From NCBI RefSeq assembly GCF_900112205.1, contig NZ_FOKW01000009.1, positions 1 through 64,000 on the forward strand: DNA of 64,000 nt. Direction: 5' to 3'. The translations under genes and the position numbers were made by a program. This document shows positions 56,745 through 64,000 of the stretch, piece after piece. The DNA comes from Natronobacterium haloterrestre (GTDB lineage: Archaea; Halobacteriota; Halobacteria; Halobacteriales; Natrialbaceae). The notes beneath the pieces are model-generated. The model was not told where the DNA came from, ran no database searches, and saw only the letters and a list, made by a program, of their open reading frames with translations. The first letter of the stretch is position 1; every line of letters begins with the position of its first letter.

Positions 56745-57998
56745 ATGAGCGAAACTGACTCGTCGGTCCGTAGCTCCGCGACGTCTCGACGCAACTTCCT
56801 GAAGTTAGTTGGGTCGATGTCTGCGGGATCCGTTATCACACAATACGGGTCCGAGGTCGCGAGAGCCCTCGAGCAGGCGACTGACGGCAATAAAGAAGCC
56901 GTCTGGATCCAGGGACAAACCTGTTCGGCATGTACGATGTCGACCCTTCAGGGGGCCGCACCCAGCCTCGAGGAAGCGATCTCGCAGTTCAAACTCGAGG
57001 TCACGTTCCATCCGGAACTCATGGCCGAAACCGGTGAAGCGGCGATCGATGCGATGAGTTCTTCGCCCGATATTCTGCTGGTCGAGGGGGCGATTCCGAC
57101 GAAGATACCCTCTGCTGCGACGTTCGGGCGGGACGAAAACGGTCATCACAAGCCGGTACTGGACTGGGTGCTCGAGTTGTCGGAGGACGCCGAGTACGTG
57201 ATGGGGATCGGCACCTGTGCCTGCTACGGCGGGTGGCAGTCGGCCGAGAACGGGGCGCCTGACGTCTACGACTTCCAGGAAGAAGGGCCGTGGATGGATC
57301 CGAACGTCACCGGTGCGAAGGGGTTGCAGTATACCCACCGGGAAGGTGATGCCGGCGTGCTCGGCCCCGAGTTCACCGCGGGATCGGGTCTGCCGGTTAT
57401 CAATGTCCCGGGCTGTATGACCCACCCCGACTACGTCCTGCTGACGGTGGCGACGCTATTGAACGGCCACGACCCCGATTTAGACGAGTTCAATCGGCCA
57501 AAAGCGTTCTACGGACCGCTCGTTCACGACGAGTGCTCACGGCGGGGCTACTTCGACCGCGGCGAGTTCGTGGACCACGTCGGCGACGGTTCCGGGAAGT
57601 GTCTCTACAACGTCGGCTGCAAGGGACCGTACTGTCACTGTGACGACTCGGTCCGGCTGTGGAACGACGGGACCAGCGTCTGCAGGAACGTCGGTGCCCC
57701 CTGTATCGGCTGTATGGAACCCGGCTTCTGGGACCGGATGACGCCGTTCTACGAGCCCGCGGAGAAACAGGGGCTCGCACTCACCGACGTCGAGACCGCC
57801 GGCAAGGTCGCCGTCGGTGCGACGGTGGCCGGTCTCGGGGCCCACGCCGCCCGGAAGGCGATGGGGTACGGCGACGACGAGGCCGCCGATGGACAGGACG
57901 GTGACGAAGAACGCCTCGAGGCCGACGGCTGTGGCTGCGGAGGCGACTGTGGCTGTCGAACTGACACCGAACCGACCGACTCACTGGAGGACCGATAA
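56745..57998 (+). CDS. [NiFe]-hydrogenase small subunit, Tat-exported
   Basis: 417 aa. Carries the iron-sulfur relay between the active site and the cytochrome. A twin-arginine signal (SRRNFLK, Arg15-Arg16) sends the folded complex outward. Proximal-cluster cysteines are Cys60, Cys63, Cys158 and Cys224; the distal ligands His261, Cys264, Cys286 and Cys292; medial ligands include Cys297 or Cys299, Cys320 and Cys323. Extra cysteines are Cys160, Cys313 and one of 297/299. After residue 352 a weakly hydrophobic helix may anchor it, and the tail ends CGCGGDCGC (396-404). Its stop overlaps the large-subunit start by 1 nt. Confidence 0.94.
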   Translation: MSETDSSVRSSATSRRNFLKLVGSMSAGSVITQYGSEVARALEQATDGNKEAVWIQGQTCSACTMSTLQGAAPSLEEAISQFKLEVTFHPELMAETGEAAIDAMSSSPDILLVEGAIPTKIPSAATFGRDENGHHKPVLDWVLELSEDAEYVMGIGTCACYGGWQSAENGAPDVYDFQEEGPWMDPNVTGAKGLQYTHREGDAGVLGPEFTAGSGLPVINVPGCMTHPDYVLLTVATLLNGHDPDLDEFNRPKAFYGPLVHDECSRRGYFDRGEFVDHVGDGSGKCLYNVGCKGPYCHCDDSVRLWNDGTSVCRNVGAPCIGCMEPGFWDRMTPFYEPAEKQGLALTDVETAGKVAVGATVAGLGAHAARKAMGYGDDEAADGQDGDEERLEADGCGCGGDCGCRTDTEPTDSLEDR

Positions 57999-59560
57999 TG
58001 CCGGAGATCGAGATCGACCCGACGACGCGTATCGAGGGCCACCATAGCACGACGCTACAGGTCGAGGACGGCGTCGTCACGGAGGCAAAGAGCCACATGG
58101 ACATGTTCCGCGGCATGGAGACCGTCGTTCTCGATCGGCCCCCGTCCGATGCCCCGGTGTTCACCCAGCGGGTCTGTGGGGTCTGCTTTACGGTCCACCG
58201 GATGAGTTCGCTCCTGGCCATCGAAAACGCCGCCAGGGAAGCCGGCGTCTTCGACGGCGTCCCCGACACCGCCCGGAAGATGCGCAACCTCCTGGAGAAG
58301 ATCGCGACCCTGTGGAACCACGCGGTCCACATGTTCGCCCTGGTCGGGCCGGACTACAGCGACGCCGTCGCCGACACGGGGCTCGAGCGGCTCGATCCGA
58401 TGGAGGGCGAGGGATACAAGAAGGCCCTGGACGCCCAGCGTCAGCTCCTGCAGGGCTTTGCCGAGTTCGGCGGTAAAGCTCCCCATCCGCTCACCTACGC
58501 CCCGGGCGGGATGTCGGCGACGCCGACGGAGGGCAAACTCCAGACCATACGGCGGCAGGTCGAGTACGTAAGCGACTGGCTGGGCCCGACCGACGCGATC
58601 CCCGAGGTGATCGGGAACGTCCGTAACGGCGAGTTCGACCCGTCGCTCGGCGAGGGGTTGCACGACATCGTCTCGATCCTGTTCGCCGCAAAGGAAGCCG
58701 GTGCGGACGACTTCGGCGTCGGCCCCGGCCGGTACTACTGCAACGGCGTCTACCCCGACGGCGAGGGCGATCGAGAGGTTCCGGCAGGCATCTACGTCGA
58801 CGGCGAACTCTCTCACCCGAGCAAGGAGGAGATCACGTCGGCGATCACCGAGGACACCACCCGGGCCTGGTACACCGACGATTCCGGCGGCCATCCGATG
58901 GAGGAGTCCCCACCCAAGCCCGACCCCGAGAAGGACGGTGCCTACTCGTGGGGGAAGGCACCGCGGTACGACGGAATGAACATGGAAACCGGATCGCTCG
59001 CCCGTCTGATCGTCACCGACCGGGATCCGTTCGACCTGCGGGCGGACCTGGGCGGCGATCCGACCAAGAGCACCACGTTGAACCGGTTGATCGCGCGGGC
59101 CCAGGAGGCTGTCCTGCTCCGGGACGGGATCCTCGAGTTGCTCGAGGAGATCGAACCGAACGCAACGGTCAACCGGGGCTGGACCGACGACTTCAGCGGC
59201 GAGGGTGTCGGGCTCTGGGAGGCCTCCCGCGGCGCGCTCTCTCACTGGGTGAAGATCGAGGACGGCACGATCACCAACTACCAGATCATCACGCCGACAC
59301 TGTGGAACCTCGGCCCCCGTGACGGGAACGGAACGCCGAGCATCTTCGAGGGGGCCGTCGAGGGAATGGAGGTCACGGACTACGAGAATCCGATCAACGT
59401 CATGCGGACGGTCCGGTCGTTCGACCCCTGTCTGGCCTGTTCGGTCCACGTCGAGAGCCCCGCAGGTACCTACACCGAAGAGGTCACCCCCGCATCGCCG
59501 GGGACCGCGGCTGCAGGGAGTGAACGGCCGTTCGCCGGCCAGGAGGTGGACGAACCGTGA
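57998..59560 (+). CDS. [NiFe]-hydrogenase large subunit
   Basis: 520 aa. Holds the Ni-Fe(CN)2CO centre that splits H2. N-terminal ligands are Cys60 and Cys63 (RVCGVCFTVH). C-terminal ligands are Cys478 and Cys481 in DPCLACSVH. After His484 there are 36 residues that the maturation protease should remove. The N-terminus IDPTTRIEGHH and the GKAPHPLTYAPGGM block fit group 1 uptake enzymes. The middle region (about 255-320) contains an acidic insertion. It shares tight overlaps with both neighbours. Confidence 0.95.
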   Translation: MPEIEIDPTTRIEGHHSTTLQVEDGVVTEAKSHMDMFRGMETVVLDRPPSDAPVFTQRVCGVCFTVHRMSSLLAIENAAREAGVFDGVPDTARKMRNLLEKIATLWNHAVHMFALVGPDYSDAVADTGLERLDPMEGEGYKKALDAQRQLLQGFAEFGGKAPHPLTYAPGGMSATPTEGKLQTIRRQVEYVSDWLGPTDAIPEVIGNVRNGEFDPSLGEGLHDIVSILFAAKEAGADDFGVGPGRYYCNGVYPDGEGDREVPAGIYVDGELSHPSKEEITSAITEDTTRAWYTDDSGGHPMEESPPKPDPEKDGAYSWGKAPRYDGMNMETGSLARLIVTDRDPFDLRADLGGDPTKSTTLNRLIARAQEAVLLRDGILELLEEIEPNATVNRGWTDDFSGEGVGLWEASRGALSHWVKIEDGTITNYQIITPTLWNLGPRDGNGTPSIFEGAVEGMEVTDYENPINVMRTVRSFDPCLACSVHVESPAGTYTEEVTPASPGTAAAGSERPFAGQEVDEP

Positions 59561-60405
59561 GCAGTAGTGCCGACGCGAGTTCCAGCTCGAGTGCGGGCAC
59601 AGGAACTGGATCGAGGGGGATCCGCGAACGCCTCGGCTCGGTCGTCTCGGATGTACTGACGCCACCTGAAGAGGCCGACGACCGGTACGACCGGATCCGG
59701 GCACTGAAGGGCCGAGTCACGGTCGAGCGCCATAGCCTCGGCGCGCGGCTCTCCCACTGGACCCAGGCACTCCTCATGTTCGTCCTGCTGGGGACGGGAT
59801 ATGCCATCAGGACCGGTACCTACGGGCCGATGAACGTCCCGCCCTGGGACGGCTACTACATCGCGTTCGGGCTGCACATGTGGGCCGGCATCCTGCTGAT
59901 GGCGTTTCTGTTCGTGCTCTTCCCGCTATACCACGTCTACGTCGATGGACACCGACAGCTGGCAGAGATGGACGACGTTCGGGTTACCGTTCGGGTTGCA
60001 CAGGCGTTCGTCGGCCTGAAGTCCTACATTCCGGGGTATCACCATGCCCGCGAGACCTACGACGAGGAGGACGGCGACTGGGTCGCATACCACCCGATGC
60101 AGAAGACGTTCTTCTGGTGGGTGTCGATCTTCTTCGGTCTGCTCACGCTGACTGGCTTCGGTATGTACGCCGAGATGCGGACGGATCCAGTCCGGTGGAT
60201 CGAACTCCTCGGGTTTCTCTCACCGTGGCTCCCGTTCGAGTTCTTGCTGCAGATCCACTTGCTGTTGGCTTTCCTCGTGTTCGCGATGATACTCGGCCAC
60301 GTCTACTTCGCGATCCTGCCGAGTAATCACGGCGCGCTAAAGTCGATGGTGTTCGGGAAGATGGACGCATACGTCCTCGAGGAGACCGATGACAGCGAAG
60401 AGTAA
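59557..60405 (+). CDS. hydrogenase cytochrome b subunit
   Basis: 282 aa from a GTG overlapping the large-subunit stop (GTGA). A Ser-rich N-terminus is followed by four hydrophobic helices typical of Ni/Fe-hydrogenase cytochrome b. Likely haem ligands are His67 (RLSHW), His107 (GLHMW), His234 (QIHLL) and His248 (LGHVY). It would anchor the hydrogenase and pass electrons to menaquinone. Confidence 0.92.
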   Translation: MSSSADASSSSSAGTGTGSRGIRERLGSVVSDVLTPPEEADDRYDRIRALKGRVTVERHSLGARLSHWTQALLMFVLLGTGYAIRTGTYGPMNVPPWDGYYIAFGLHMWAGILLMAFLFVLFPLYHVYVDGHRQLAEMDDVRVTVRVAQAFVGLKSYIPGYHHARETYDEEDGDWVAYHPMQKTFFWWVSIFFGLLTLTGFGMYAEMRTDPVRWIELLGFLSPWLPFEFLLQIHLLLAFLVFAMILGHVYFAILPSNHGALKSMVFGKMDAYVLEETDDSEE

Positions 60406-60901
60406 CGACGCCAGGCCGTCGGCGACCGAAGAGAGTCGCCGCCGGGCGGTCGTCGGCGTCGGCAGCATGGTACTGGGGGACGACGGGGTCGGCTACCACG
60501 CGATCGAGGCCCTGCAGGAGCACGACGGCGATCTTCCGGCGGGGACGACCCTCACGCACGCAGGGACGACAGCGTTCCTGGCGCTCGAGGCGATGAGCGG
60601 GGCTGACCTGGCGATCGTCGTCGACGCCCTCGCGATCGACGAATCGCCGGGAACGATCCGGGAGTATCGACTCGACCGGCCGGACACGAGCGCGCCCGAG
60701 GTGACGATGCACGACTACAGTTTCACTGATGCCCTCGCGGTGGGCGACGCAGCATACGACGTTCCCGAGGAAGTGTACCTGATCGGTGTCGTGCCGGAGC
60801 GGCTCGAGCCCGCAGTCGAACTCTCGGAACCGGTCGAAACAGCACTTCCGGAACTGGTGTCGCGGATCGAACGACGGCTTGTTACCGAGACGGATCACTG
60901 A
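60389..60901 (+). CDS. hydrogenase maturation endopeptidase (HycI/HybD type)
   Basis: 170 aa. Cleaves the C-terminal peptide of the large subunit after nickel insertion. The motif GVGSMVLGDDGVG (about 22-34) supplies the first acid; the usual Asn of GxGN is Ser here. The second acid is in IVVDALAI and the His in TMHDYSF, matching the metal-ligand set of HybD. It overlaps the cytochrome gene by 17 nt. Confidence 0.9.
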   Translation: MTAKSNDARPSATEESRRRAVVGVGSMVLGDDGVGYHAIEALQEHDGDLPAGTTLTHAGTTAFLALEAMSGADLAIVVDALAIDESPGTIREYRLDRPDTSAPEVTMHDYSFTDALAVGDAAYDVPEEVYLIGVVPERLEPAVELSEPVETALPELVSRIERRLVTETDH

Positions 60902-60905
60902 ACCA

Positions 60906-61082
60906 ATGAAAGGCTACTGGCACTGTACTGACTGCGGTGAACGGATAGCGAAAGACGCGATCGACGAGCACGAGAGCAACGGCCACCACGTGAGGGGCCA
61001 TTTCCGCCCCGATCGGCTGCTTGCCGGCGACCCGGAGATGATCGGCTCGCAGGTAAACGACGGCGACGGGGGTGGCGTCTGA
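60906..61082 (+). CDS. 58-aa C2H2 zinc-finger protein within the hydrogenase operon
   Basis: Starts MKGYWHCTDCGERI with Cys7 and Cys10, then EHESNGHHVRGHF with His residues at 22, 27 and 28: a short C-x2-C-x11-H-x4/5-H zinc finger. The C-terminal part is Gly/Asp rich. It lies 4 nt after the protease gene and its stop overlaps the hypC start, so it is co-transcribed. It is shorter than HupJ-type rubredoxins and lacks their second Cys pair. No named family was recognised. Confidence 0.75.
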   Translation: MKGYWHCTDCGERIAKDAIDEHESNGHHVRGHFRPDRLLAGDPEMIGSQVNDGDGGGV

Positions 61083-61375
61083 TGTGTCTGGGTGTCCCCG
61101 GCGAGATCCGGGAGATCGACGGCCAGGAGGCAGTCGCCGACTTCTGGGGCGTCGAACGCCGGGTCAGGCTCGACGTCGTCGGCGACGCGGTCGAGGTCGG
61201 CGACTACGTTCTCAACCACGCCGGGTTCGCGATCCGGAAGATTCCGGACCACGAAGTCGAAGAGACGATGGCCATCTACGAGTCGCTGTTCGCGGATGAT
61301 CCCGACGAGGCCCTCGAGGAAATCGGTTCACAGGGGAGTGAGACGGCTGAGCTCGAGCTCGGTGGGGACGAATGA
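61082..61375 (+). CDS. hypC: hydrogenase maturation chaperone HypC
   Basis: 97 aa starting MCLGVPGEIREI, where Cys2 is the conserved Fe(CN)2CO-carrying residue. The beta-barrel core VGDYVLNHAGFAIRKI is followed by a long acidic C-terminal extension. With HypD it carries the iron moiety to the large subunit. The gene overlaps hypD by 4 nt. Confidence 0.95.
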   Translation: MCLGVPGEIREIDGQEAVADFWGVERRVRLDVVGDAVEVGDYVLNHAGFAIRKIPDHEVEETMAIYESLFADDPDEALEEIGSQGSETAELELGGDE

Positions 61376-62469
61376 GCGAGGACCTGAAGTTCCGTGATCC
61401 GGACGCAGCCGAGGAGTTAGCGGCCGACCTCGAGGAGTTGATGGATCGGATCGACGATCCCGTCGAGATCATGCACGTCTGTGGCTCCCACGAACAGGTC
61501 ATCGCGAAGTTCGGGTTGCGGAGCATGCTCCCCGAGGGATTGTCGATCACGATGGGGCCGGGGTGTCCGGTCTGTGTGACCGACATGCCGGAAGTCGACG
61601 AGGCCGTCGCGCTGGCCGAGGACGGGAAAGTCGTTGCCACGTACGGCGACATGTTCCGCGTTCCCGGTACGAGAAAGAGTCTCGCCGACGCAAAGGCAGC
61701 GGGGGCGAGCGTGGAGGTCGTCTACAGCGCGAGCGAGGCGGTCGATCTCGCGGCGGAACGCGACGAGGAAGTCGTCTTCTTCGCGACGGGGTTCGAGACG
61801 ACCGCGGCACCGACCGCGGCGATCCTGCAGACTGGCCCACCCGAGAACTTCTCGGTGCTGTCGGCACACAAGTACGTCCCGCCGGCGATGGAAGTCGTCG
61901 CCGAAATGCCGGACACCGACGTCGACGGGTTCCTCGCTGCCGGACACGCGGCGACGATCACCGGATACGGTCTCTTCGAGGAATTCGTCGACGGCTACGA
62001 CCTGCCGGTCGTCGTCGGCGGCTTCGAGCCGATCGACGTCCTGTACGGCCTCCGGAAACTGCTCGAGTTCCTCGCCGAAGGCGAAGACGGACTCGCGAAC
62101 GCGTACCCACGCTGTGTCACCAGGGAGGGTAACGAAGCAGCGATGGACGCCATCCGTGAGGTCTTCGACCTGACGGCCGGCGAGTGGCGGGGTATCGCCG
62201 ACATCCCGGACGCCAATTTCGTTTTGAGCGACGCGTACGCCGAGTACGACGCCCGCGAACGGTTCGATATCGAGCCCGTCGAGGGAGACGTGGACCCGCT
62301 AACCGAGCAGTGTCTCTGCGGGGACATTATGGCCGGGACGACCTCGCCGGAGGAGTGTGACCTCTTCGGCGACGAGTGTACGCCGTCCAATCCCGTCGGG
62401 GCCTGTATGGTGTCCGACGAGGGGACGTGCAAGATTCACCTCGAGTACGGAGGGCGACCCGATCTATGA
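61372..62469 (+). CDS. hypD: hydrogenase maturation protein HypD
   Basis: 365 aa. Assembles Fe(CN)2CO with HypC. Conserved CGSHEQ with Cys37, GPGCPVC with Cys65 and Cys68, FFATGFETTAAPTAA, and a C-terminal Fe-S cluster region (CLCGDIMAGTTSPEECDLFG, CTPSNPVGACMVSDEG). The length is typical. The gene overlaps hypE by 4 nt. Confidence 0.96.
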   Translation: MSEDLKFRDPDAAEELAADLEELMDRIDDPVEIMHVCGSHEQVIAKFGLRSMLPEGLSITMGPGCPVCVTDMPEVDEAVALAEDGKVVATYGDMFRVPGTRKSLADAKAAGASVEVVYSASEAVDLAAERDEEVVFFATGFETTAAPTAAILQTGPPENFSVLSAHKYVPPAMEVVAEMPDTDVDGFLAAGHAATITGYGLFEEFVDGYDLPVVVGGFEPIDVLYGLRKLLEFLAEGEDGLANAYPRCVTREGNEAAMDAIREVFDLTAGEWRGIADIPDANFVLSDAYAEYDARERFDIEPVEGDVDPLTEQCLCGDIMAGTTSPEECDLFGDECTPSNPVGACMVSDEGTCKIHLEYGGRPDL

Positions 62470-63500
62470 CTGATGACGTAGACGACGAGACGATCACTCT
62501 CGCGCATGGTGCAGGGACGGGACGGACGACCGAACTGATCGAAGAGACGGTCCTGCCGCACCTGGCCAGCAACGGGCAGGAGTCGGTCGGACTCGAGGCC
62601 CTGGACGACGGAGCGGTTCACGACGTCGGCGACCGCGCGATCGTGACCACGACCGACAGTCACGTCGTCTCGCCGCGATCGTTTCCCGGCGGCGACCTCG
62701 GTCGGCTCGCGGTCGCGGGGACGGTCAACGACCTCGCGGTCATGGGCGCGACCGACCCCCTCTCGCTGACCTGTTCACTGGTCGTCGAGGAAGGTACCCC
62801 GCTGTCGGAAGTCGAGTCGGTTCTCGAATCGATGGCAGCGACCTGCGAGGAGGCCGAGTGTGCGATCACGACCGGCGACACGAAGGTGATGGGGAGCGGC
62901 GAGATCGACGGCATCGTGGTCAACACGACCGGGGTCGCCATCATTCCGGACGGGGAACACGTCCCTGACGCCGGCCTCTCGACGGGGGACAAGCTCATTC
63001 TCTCGGGTCCCGTCGGCGACCACGGCATCGCTCTACTGGCCGAACGGGAGGGGTTCGATCTCGAGGGCGACCTCGAGAGCGACGTCGCCCCGATCAACGG
63101 CCTCGTCGCGGCGGCGCTCGAGGCCGGAACCGTGACGGCGATGAAAGATCCTACGCGGGGAGGGTTCGCCACCGCGGTCAACGAGATGGTCCGCAAGGCG
63201 GACGTCGGAGCGACGGTCGACGAAACTGCGATACCGGTCGGGGACACCGTCGCCTCGTCCGGCGAACTGCTGGGGATCGACCCGCTGGATGTGGCAAACG
63301 AGGGGAAAGTCCTCCTCGGCGTCGATCCCGAGGACGCCGAGGCGGTACTCGAAGCGATCCGCAGCCATCCGCTGGGCGAGGACGCCGCGGTCGTCGGTGA
63401 GGTTACCGACGACCATGCGGGCCGGGTCGTCCTCGATACCGGCTTCGGCCGGCGCTACCTCTCGGAACCGGAGGGCGTTCAACTTCCACGGATCTGCTAG
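62466..63500 (+). CDS. hypE: hydrogenase maturation protein HypE
   Basis: 344 aa from the ATG at 62466. It dehydrates a thiocarbamate on its C-terminal Cys to the cyanide donor. The C-terminus is LPRIC, with the reactive Cys last. AIR-synthase-like ATP-binding motifs DDGAVHDVGDRAIVTTTDSH and MKDPTRGGFATAVNE are intact. The carbamoyltransferase HypF that loads it is not in this window. Confidence 0.96.
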   Translation: MTDDVDDETITLAHGAGTGRTTELIEETVLPHLASNGQESVGLEALDDGAVHDVGDRAIVTTTDSHVVSPRSFPGGDLGRLAVAGTVNDLAVMGATDPLSLTCSLVVEEGTPLSEVESVLESMAATCEEAECAITTGDTKVMGSGEIDGIVVNTTGVAIIPDGEHVPDAGLSTGDKLILSGPVGDHGIALLAEREGFDLEGDLESDVAPINGLVAAALEAGTVTAMKDPTRGGFATAVNEMVRKADVGATVDETAIPVGDTVASSGELLGIDPLDVANEGKVLLGVDPEDAEAVLEAIRSHPLGEDAAVVGEVTDDHAGRVVLDTGFGRRYLSEPEGVQLPRIC

Positions 63501-63501
63501 T

Positions 63502-63921
63502 ATGCACGAGTTTAGCGTCGCCGATGCCGTGCTCGAACGAGCGCTCGAGACCGCAGCCGACCACGGGACTGCGATAATCGAGGAACTGACGATCGAACTC
63601 GGGACGGCGACCCATGTCAACCCCGACCAGCTCACGTTCTGCCTGGAAACGATCGCCGACGGAACGCCAGCAGCCGACGCCACGGTGACGATCGACCCTG
63701 TCGAACCACACGCCCGCTGTGACTGTGGTTGGGACGGCGAGCCGCCGACGCTCGACGTGTCGGGAGCTGTCGCGCCGAACTTGCGCTGTCCCGACTGTGG
63801 CGAACGGCTCGAACTGGTCCGGGGCAAGGAGTGTCGACTTTCGAGTATCACCGTTCCCGACGCGGACTCGTCCGCGGGGAACGGTGACGACCCGATGCGA
63901 ATCGACGAAACCGGTGACTAA
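63502..63921 (+). CDS. hypA: hydrogenase nickel chaperone HypA
   Basis: 139 aa. Starts MHEFSVADAVLERALE, with the N-terminal Met-His-Glu nickel site. The zinc domain uses two CxC/CxxC pairs (RCDCG, CPDCG). It starts 1 nt after hypE. A disordered tail of about 30 residues is unusual for the family. Confidence 0.95.
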   Translation: MHEFSVADAVLERALETAADHGTAIIEELTIELGTATHVNPDQLTFCLETIADGTPAADATVTIDPVEPHARCDCGWDGEPPTLDVSGAVAPNLRCPDCGERLELVRGKECRLSSITVPDADSSAGNGDDPMRIDETGD

Positions 63922-63925
63922 TACT

Positions 63926-64000
63926 ATGTATCCAACCCGAACACGGATCGATATCGACCGATCCACGGCGTACAGCTCACGACTCAACACGGTGCTCGCC
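63926..64000 (+). CDS. start of a probable HypB nickel GTPase (cut by the window end)
   Basis: 25 codons from the ATG at 63926 (RTRIDIDRSTAYSSRLNTVL) run off the window, 4 nt after hypA. The GTPase motifs are not reached, so the HypB name rests on gene order (hypA is commonly next to hypB). It is partial at its 3' end. Confidence 0.5.
   Translation, partial: MYPTRTRIDIDRSTAYSSRLNTVLA

Follow-up and report, generated by a model that had tools for sequence, protein, structure and literature searches.

Can a haloarchaeon of the genus Natronobacterium draw energy from molecular hydrogen, and if so, which acceptor would receive the electrons? The question is raised by an operon at the right-hand end of a 64,000 nt stretch of Natronobacterium haloterrestre DNA (contig NZ_FOKW01000009.1, positions 1 to 64,000; hereafter the window). 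Eleven genes run from the small-subunit gene at 56745 through hypB to hypF (Table 1), those of the window all on the + strand. The first two, for the small and the large subunit, overlap by 1 nt; hydC and hydD come next, and the junctions of the operon are 1-17 nt overlaps or 1-4 nt gaps. All 11 reading frames are intact, Pfam and NCBIfam families matched 10 of the 11 proteins far beyond chance, and the maturation set is complete, with HypA-F and HydD all encoded. In its completeness and compactness, the operon is one full gene set for a membrane H2-oxidising enzyme. A previous sequence-only reading of the window had named these genes up to the start of one more at the window edge; it was right in every item and in their order, and its description of tight packing was borne out (overlaps ≤17 nt, gaps ≤4 nt). 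It had also proposed extending the contig in search of hypB and hypF, and had counted a genome lacking hypF as part of a case against H2 use; because the gene at the edge is hypB and the next is hypF, this objection does not arise.

Sequence comparison indicates that the enzyme is very probably a group 1 (1a-like) respiratory H2-uptake [NiFe]-hydrogenase of a haloarchaeal type, a judgement that covers the enzyme type and its uptake role but not the electron acceptor. HydB carries the motifs L1 RVCGVCFTVH and L2 DPCLACSVH, and in the alignment it retains all Ni-binding cysteines (C60, C63, C478 and C481) as well as the conserved residues R58, H67, R411 and H484. HydB also shares the L2 His, and the first motif's Arg and Gly, with nearly all aligned large subunits. 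The 36 residues beyond DPCLACSVH, following the L2 His, form a C-terminal tail that is the expected substrate of HydD. HydA has a twin-arginine translocation (Tat) motif, SRRNFLK, and the ligands for three iron-sulfur (Fe-S) clusters (Cys60/63/158/224; His261, Cys264/286/292; Cys299/313/320/323). By these residues, HydB and HydA are of the catalytic type. The b-type cytochrome gene was assigned from its PF01292 match. The sequence-only reading had proposed a group-1-type membrane hydrogenase, which is upheld by the Ni ligands, the cytochrome b anchor and the full maturation set; it had also allowed for a large subunit in a non-catalytic clade, but HydB fell among respiratory enzymes with all Ni ligands kept. 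From this gene set we infer that the organism can use H2.

Table 1. Genes of the hydrogenase operon. Positions are those of the window; the prefix C10 marks positions on the contig that carries the window.
Gene product	Position	Strand	Evidence
HydA, small (Fe-S) subunit, 417 aa	56745..57998	+	PF14720 (NiFe_hyd_SSU_C) E 2.4e-29; PF01058 E 3.3e-22; TIGR00391 above cut-off
HydB, large (Ni-Fe) subunit, 520 aa	57998..59560	+	PF00374 (NiFeSe_Hases) E 4e-86; Ni ligands; alignment to solved enzymes
HydC, b-type cytochrome membrane subunit, 282 aa	59557..60405	+	PF01292 E 4.8e-17; three strong hydrophobic segments
HydD, maturation endopeptidase, 170 aa	60389..60901	+	PF01750 E 2.2e-16; TIGR00072 above cut-off
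Small zinc-finger protein, 58 aa, uncharacterised	60906..61082	+	Conserved in related operons; no family above cut-off
HypC, maturation chaperone	61082..61375	+	PF01455 E 9.7e-24; TIGR00074 above cut-off
HypD	61372..62469	+	PF01924 E 2.4e-126
HypE	62466..63500	+	TIGR02124 E 4.9e-108, above cut-off
HypA, nickel metallochaperone	63502..63921	+	PF01155 E 1.4e-21
HypB, start in window	63926..64000, ends C10:64744	+	TIGR00073 E 4.5e-68
HypF, beyond window end	C10:64747-67068		HypF_C E 8.1e-29

To place the enzyme, we built a maximum-likelihood tree of 67 large subunits. The haloarchaeal members of the type formed one cluster (support 100/100) with three subclades. The window copy is nested inside subclade A (100/99), together with Halovenus salina, H. 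aranensis, Natronomonas sp. LN261, Halorussus halobius, Halonotius aquaticus, Haloplanus ruber, Halohasta salina and two Salinibaculum; these hosts are scattered over five families, mostly in aerobic-looking genera. Strains with demonstrated H2 use or their close kin make up subclade B (100/99): AArc1, Halodesulfurarchaeum and the congener G052. Subclade C (100/96) includes Halorientalis, Halovenus carboxidivorans and, among others, second copies in Halapricum. The Arg preceding the first CxxC is kept in A and in all other large subunits compared but lost in B and C; M, K or T takes its place in B, against the usual Arg of the window HydB. A large subunit of the haloarchaeal cluster (at least 57% identity) was present in 27 of 392 sampled genomes of the class, in line with the earlier expectation that most haloarchaea lack such genes, and one within 84% of the window's in six, the window's own genome included. 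The nearest relatives of HydB are haloarchaeal, followed by an uncultured archaeal metagenome-assembled genome and an Archaeoglobi-like copy. The window copy is a new member of subclade A, an uncharacterised branch of a known hydrogenase type.

Group 1 hydrogenases have been described in Halodesulfurarchaeum (Sorokin et al., PMC5437934) and in soda-lake natronoarchaea and Natronobacterium gregoryi (Sorokin et al., PMC6176080), with the same gene order and growth on H2 and sulfur (Sorokin et al. 2017, 2018; PMC5437934, PMC6176080). The sequence-only reading had also mentioned that a few anaerobic sulfur-respiring haloarchaea are reported to use H2. In the subclade B relatives, hydD and hypA-F adjoin hydABC and the HydDB class is 1a (PMC6176080); the operon was remarked upon as suited to lateral transfer (Sorokin et al., PMC6176080), and a 2024 survey listed Halobacteriota among the phyla with undescribed group 1 clades (PMC11018855). 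As H2-using haloarchaea with the same operon are already published, the operon type is not new. The window operon shares its group 1 type, Tat-type small subunit and cytochrome b with AArc1, Halodesulfurarchaeum and N. gregoryi. Natrarchaeobaculum sulfurireducens AArc1, which grows with H2 and sulfur (PMC6176080), has an identical 11-gene order on plasmid pAArc1-02, including the zinc-finger gene between hydD and hypC. Its subclade B large subunit is 60% identical to that of the window, and its operon has an ABC transporter as neighbour on the plasmid, whereas the window operon lies among chromosomal-type genes.

Among solved structures, the best relatives of HydB are the Desulfovibrio periplasmic [NiFeSe]/[NiFe] hydrogenases (group 1a/1b; PDB 5jsu and 1e3d, E 3.5e-66 and 9e-65), which have the same Ni-site and cluster framework. 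Overall similarity is low, however; HydB has no selenocysteine, and the window operon also includes a gene for a membrane cytochrome b, with the hyp genes alongside. The Isp-type group 1g enzyme of Acidianus is likewise an archaeal membrane-bound uptake hydrogenase, tied to sulfur respiration (PMC11018855), but the window operon lacks isp1/isp2 and its b-type cytochrome is of the PF01292 type. We ruled out membership in the Isp-type groups 1g/1e because no isp genes lie between or directly after the structural genes. Of the homologues that the sequence-only reading had proposed for comparison, the haloarchaeal ones are the nearest relatives; the crenarchaeal ones fit less well, as the 1g Isp genes are absent.

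Other hydrogenases came to light in the same genomes sampled. The small subunit lacks the twin-arginine motif and hydrophobic signal in 10 of 11 subclade C operons (L043, L053, L060, L063, L064, L084, L085, L092, L093 and L096), where no cytochrome b gene was found; nine of these 10 loci have a strong transmembrane helix at the small-subunit C-terminus, and L085 ends early. The basal member L041 retains the ancestral form. These sequences suggest that a single switch within subclade C gave rise to a hydrogenase that anchors itself and faces the cytoplasm. In L042 (G319) and L044 (G089), both subclade B relatives, the small-subunit frame breaks off short of the C-terminal cluster ligands, and a cytochrome b gene was not detected; the breaks may be due to frameshift, sequencing error or decay. 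Loci L066-L069 represent a second haloarchaeal type (large subunit 657-719 aa, about 30% identical to that of the window) with the gene order hydD-small-large and no Tat motif. They are probably the 1h-like enzymes mentioned for Halopiger in PMC11018855, and the window copy is far from them in the large-subunit tree, which held no 1h reference sequence. L070-L073, from other haloarchaeal genera, are [NiFe] large subunits of a group 3-like kind, with 25-33% identity to that of the window.

Which acceptor could subclade A serve? Among the genes of the window genome are six strong matches to the heme-copper oxidase type, one or more of which may be a nitric oxide reductase. The genome also has two FdhA/Nas-type enzymes, a membrane formate dehydrogenase, dimethyl sulfoxide (DMSO)/Psr-like and Ttr-like (tetrathionate-type) reductases with NrfD anchors, and a large Nar-like protein. 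With oxidases and varied reductases together, its gene content singles out no acceptor. Two other subclade A hosts, Halovenus aranensis (G302) and Halonotius aquaticus (G066), which we matched to named contigs by sequence and whose draft genomes are 98-99% complete, both encode heme-copper oxidases and have no PF00384 protein, i.e. no molybdopterin reductase; G066 also lacks NrfD. Because the PF00384-family sulfur, nitrate and DMSO reductases are missing, oxygen is the obvious acceptor there. From this gene content we judge O2 the most likely acceptor for subclade A in at least some hosts, which predicts H2-to-O2 respiration, unlike in the tested subclade B strains. In the window host, nitrate, DMSO or sulfur compounds are possible acceptors as well.

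The operon was most likely gained by horizontal transfer, as judged from the genomes of the genus. At the site where the window genome has 10.75 kb, the closest congener, G085, has about 380 bp, and the operon makes up nearly all of the difference. The G085 flanks are 91-95% identical in DNA on both sides, falling to 82.6% in the last 345 bp before the left junction; an empty site between such flanks supports gain by transfer. The congeners G167 and G363 gave no match, and G052 carries its subclade B enzyme elsewhere in the genome. As supporting evidence only, since the genes were picked by a simple composition rule, the GC content at third codon positions of the operon (0.75-0.88) is lower than that of 53 flanking genes (median 0.87; p 0.014). 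Precise loss of the operon in G085 could leave the same pattern, but gain is likelier because the distribution is scattered. Insertion by a transposon or at a tRNA site was considered and dropped, since no repeat of at least 10 nt is common to both junctions and the only tRNA found (Val) is about 2 kb away; inspection of the left junction surroundings revealed nothing notable.

Parts of the operon appear to have been exchanged separately in other hosts. A joined HypD and HypE tree grouped the window with most of subclade A (100/100) and set apart the Halovenus/Natronomonas trio (L074, L075 and L076), its closest relatives by large subunit; a tree holding subclade A together was rejected (approximately unbiased test, p 0.004). 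In its zinc-finger gene, about 80% identical, the trio remains of the subclade A type. The hyp module thus appears to have been swapped in the trio downstream of the zinc-finger gene, and the window retains the common pairing. Separately, the large subunit of L061 (G129) is 36-38% identical to the window's, while its neighbouring hypD and hypE are 61-71% identical to those of the window and group with subclade A hyp genes; as judged from this locus, maturation modules are common to distant hydrogenases.

The 58-aa protein encoded between hydD and hypC is a recurrent companion of the structural genes. Its gene occupies this position in subclades A, B and C, and adjoins the structural genes where the hyp genes lie elsewhere (Halapricum). 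Four residues are invariant (C7, C10, H22 and H27), and the motif RP[DE]RLLxxDP is nearly so; the protein is predicted to be a strand-strand-helix-strand zinc finger (model pTM 0.44). Pfam and NCBIfam searches gave no curated family above cut-off, and the archaeal loci examined outside the haloarchaea did not yield the protein. The likeliest guess is an assembly role specific to the structural subunits.

Two cysteines were considered as distinguishing marks. In HydA a Cys replaces Pro beside the medial cluster, so that a [4Fe-4S] medial cluster is predicted, but nearly every archaeal group 1 small subunit in the comparison has the same replacement, which was dropped as a special feature. The extra Cys160 (GTCACYGG) was likewise dropped as a mark of subclade A, being found in Desulfovibrio 1e3d and missing in the subclade A Salinibaculum. 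HydA ends in a cysteine-rich tail, CGCGGDCGC (gene region 57900-57998), and a tail of this type recurs in several subclade A members but not all, being absent in L036 and short in L037.

Taken as one claim, we tentatively propose that subclade A is an O2-linked uptake hydrogenase that spread by transfer among aerobic haloarchaea and would give heterotrophs supplementary energy from H2, without the [4Fe-3S] device and with the 58-aa protein as an unrecognised assembly factor. Besides a possible loss in G085, several points weigh against it. The argument from G302 and G066 rests on absence in drafts, which may miss genes, and these hosts may use acceptors beyond those searched, e.g. Fe(III) or fumarate. 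The oxidase and reductase repertoires of subclade B and C hosts overlap with those of subclade A hosts, with no clean partition. The soda-lake strains of subclade B did not use H2 aerobically (PMC6176080). The cysteines of the [4Fe-3S] cluster (Hyd-1 positions 19 and 120) are replaced in HydA by Ala62 and Gly163, and the proximal site aligned as the ordinary type, whereas the aligned Parabacteroides enzyme has both cysteines; O2 tolerance through this cluster, as in group 1d, is ruled out. Searches of the window genome for the nickel transporters CbiM and NicO gave none above cut-off, although the missing NicO carries little weight because it is also absent from the congener G052, a probable H2 user.

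It is also quite conceivable, if short of probable, that the subclade A enzyme, like that of the characterised subclade B strains, serves anaerobic respiration only, with sulfur, DMSO, tetrathionate or nitrate as acceptor. The reductases of the window genome (Ttr-like, DMSO/Psr-like with NrfD, Nar-like) and its membrane formate dehydrogenase would suit such a role, as would the ordinary proximal cluster of HydA and the coupling of H2 to sulfur, not O2, in subclade B (PMC6176080). Yet subclade A cannot generally depend on such reductases, since G302 and G066 have no PF00384 reductase and G066 no NrfD, and A and B are separate in the large-subunit tree.

A silent or decaying cassette left after transfer is improbable. 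The insertion is recent relative to G085, a dedicated Ni importer was not found above cut-off, and no upstream motif conserved across subclade A was seen, the upstream regions aligning only among close relatives; all of this would agree with decay, but 11 of 11 frames are intact and every catalytic residue is conserved. Reverse operation, releasing H2 to dispose of excess electrons in fermentation or redox imbalance, is very improbable: [NiFe] hydrogenases are reversible in principle, but a quinone-linked cytochrome b with Tat-exported subunits is typical of uptake, menaquinone is too oxidising for good H2 formation, and AArc1 consumes H2 with an operon of this type.

For an uptake enzyme of this type, knowledge of the family suggests the following course. 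HypA-F would build the Ni-Fe(CN)2CO centre within the large subunit, and HydD would then remove its C-terminal tail. The Tat signal of the small subunit would export the folded dimer, which would dock on cytochrome b. H2 would be split outside the cell. Its electrons would travel via the three Fe-S clusters and then heme b to menaquinone, from which the oxidase or reductase that the cell expresses would take them. Gene content and order, catalytic residues, phylogeny and the empty site were observed directly; activity, topology, acceptor and direction of transfer we infer from them and from the family.

In the literature found, sulfur compounds and DMSO are the only acceptors with which haloarchaea were shown to use H2, and the strains, anaerobic or facultative, have subclade B enzymes. 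New relative to this work are the separate subclade A, the empty site in the closest congener and the hosts without molybdopterin reductases. Some of the genomes with a subclade A enzyme have a gene content that leaves the host little besides oxygen to respire, and O2-linked H2 oxidation in haloarchaea is a concrete, testable prediction for which deposited strains exist. If it is true, H2 oxidation would be a self-contained cassette gained and lost by aerobic haloarchaea, comparable with CO oxidation, and would bear on how cells survive in salt crusts and starved brines.

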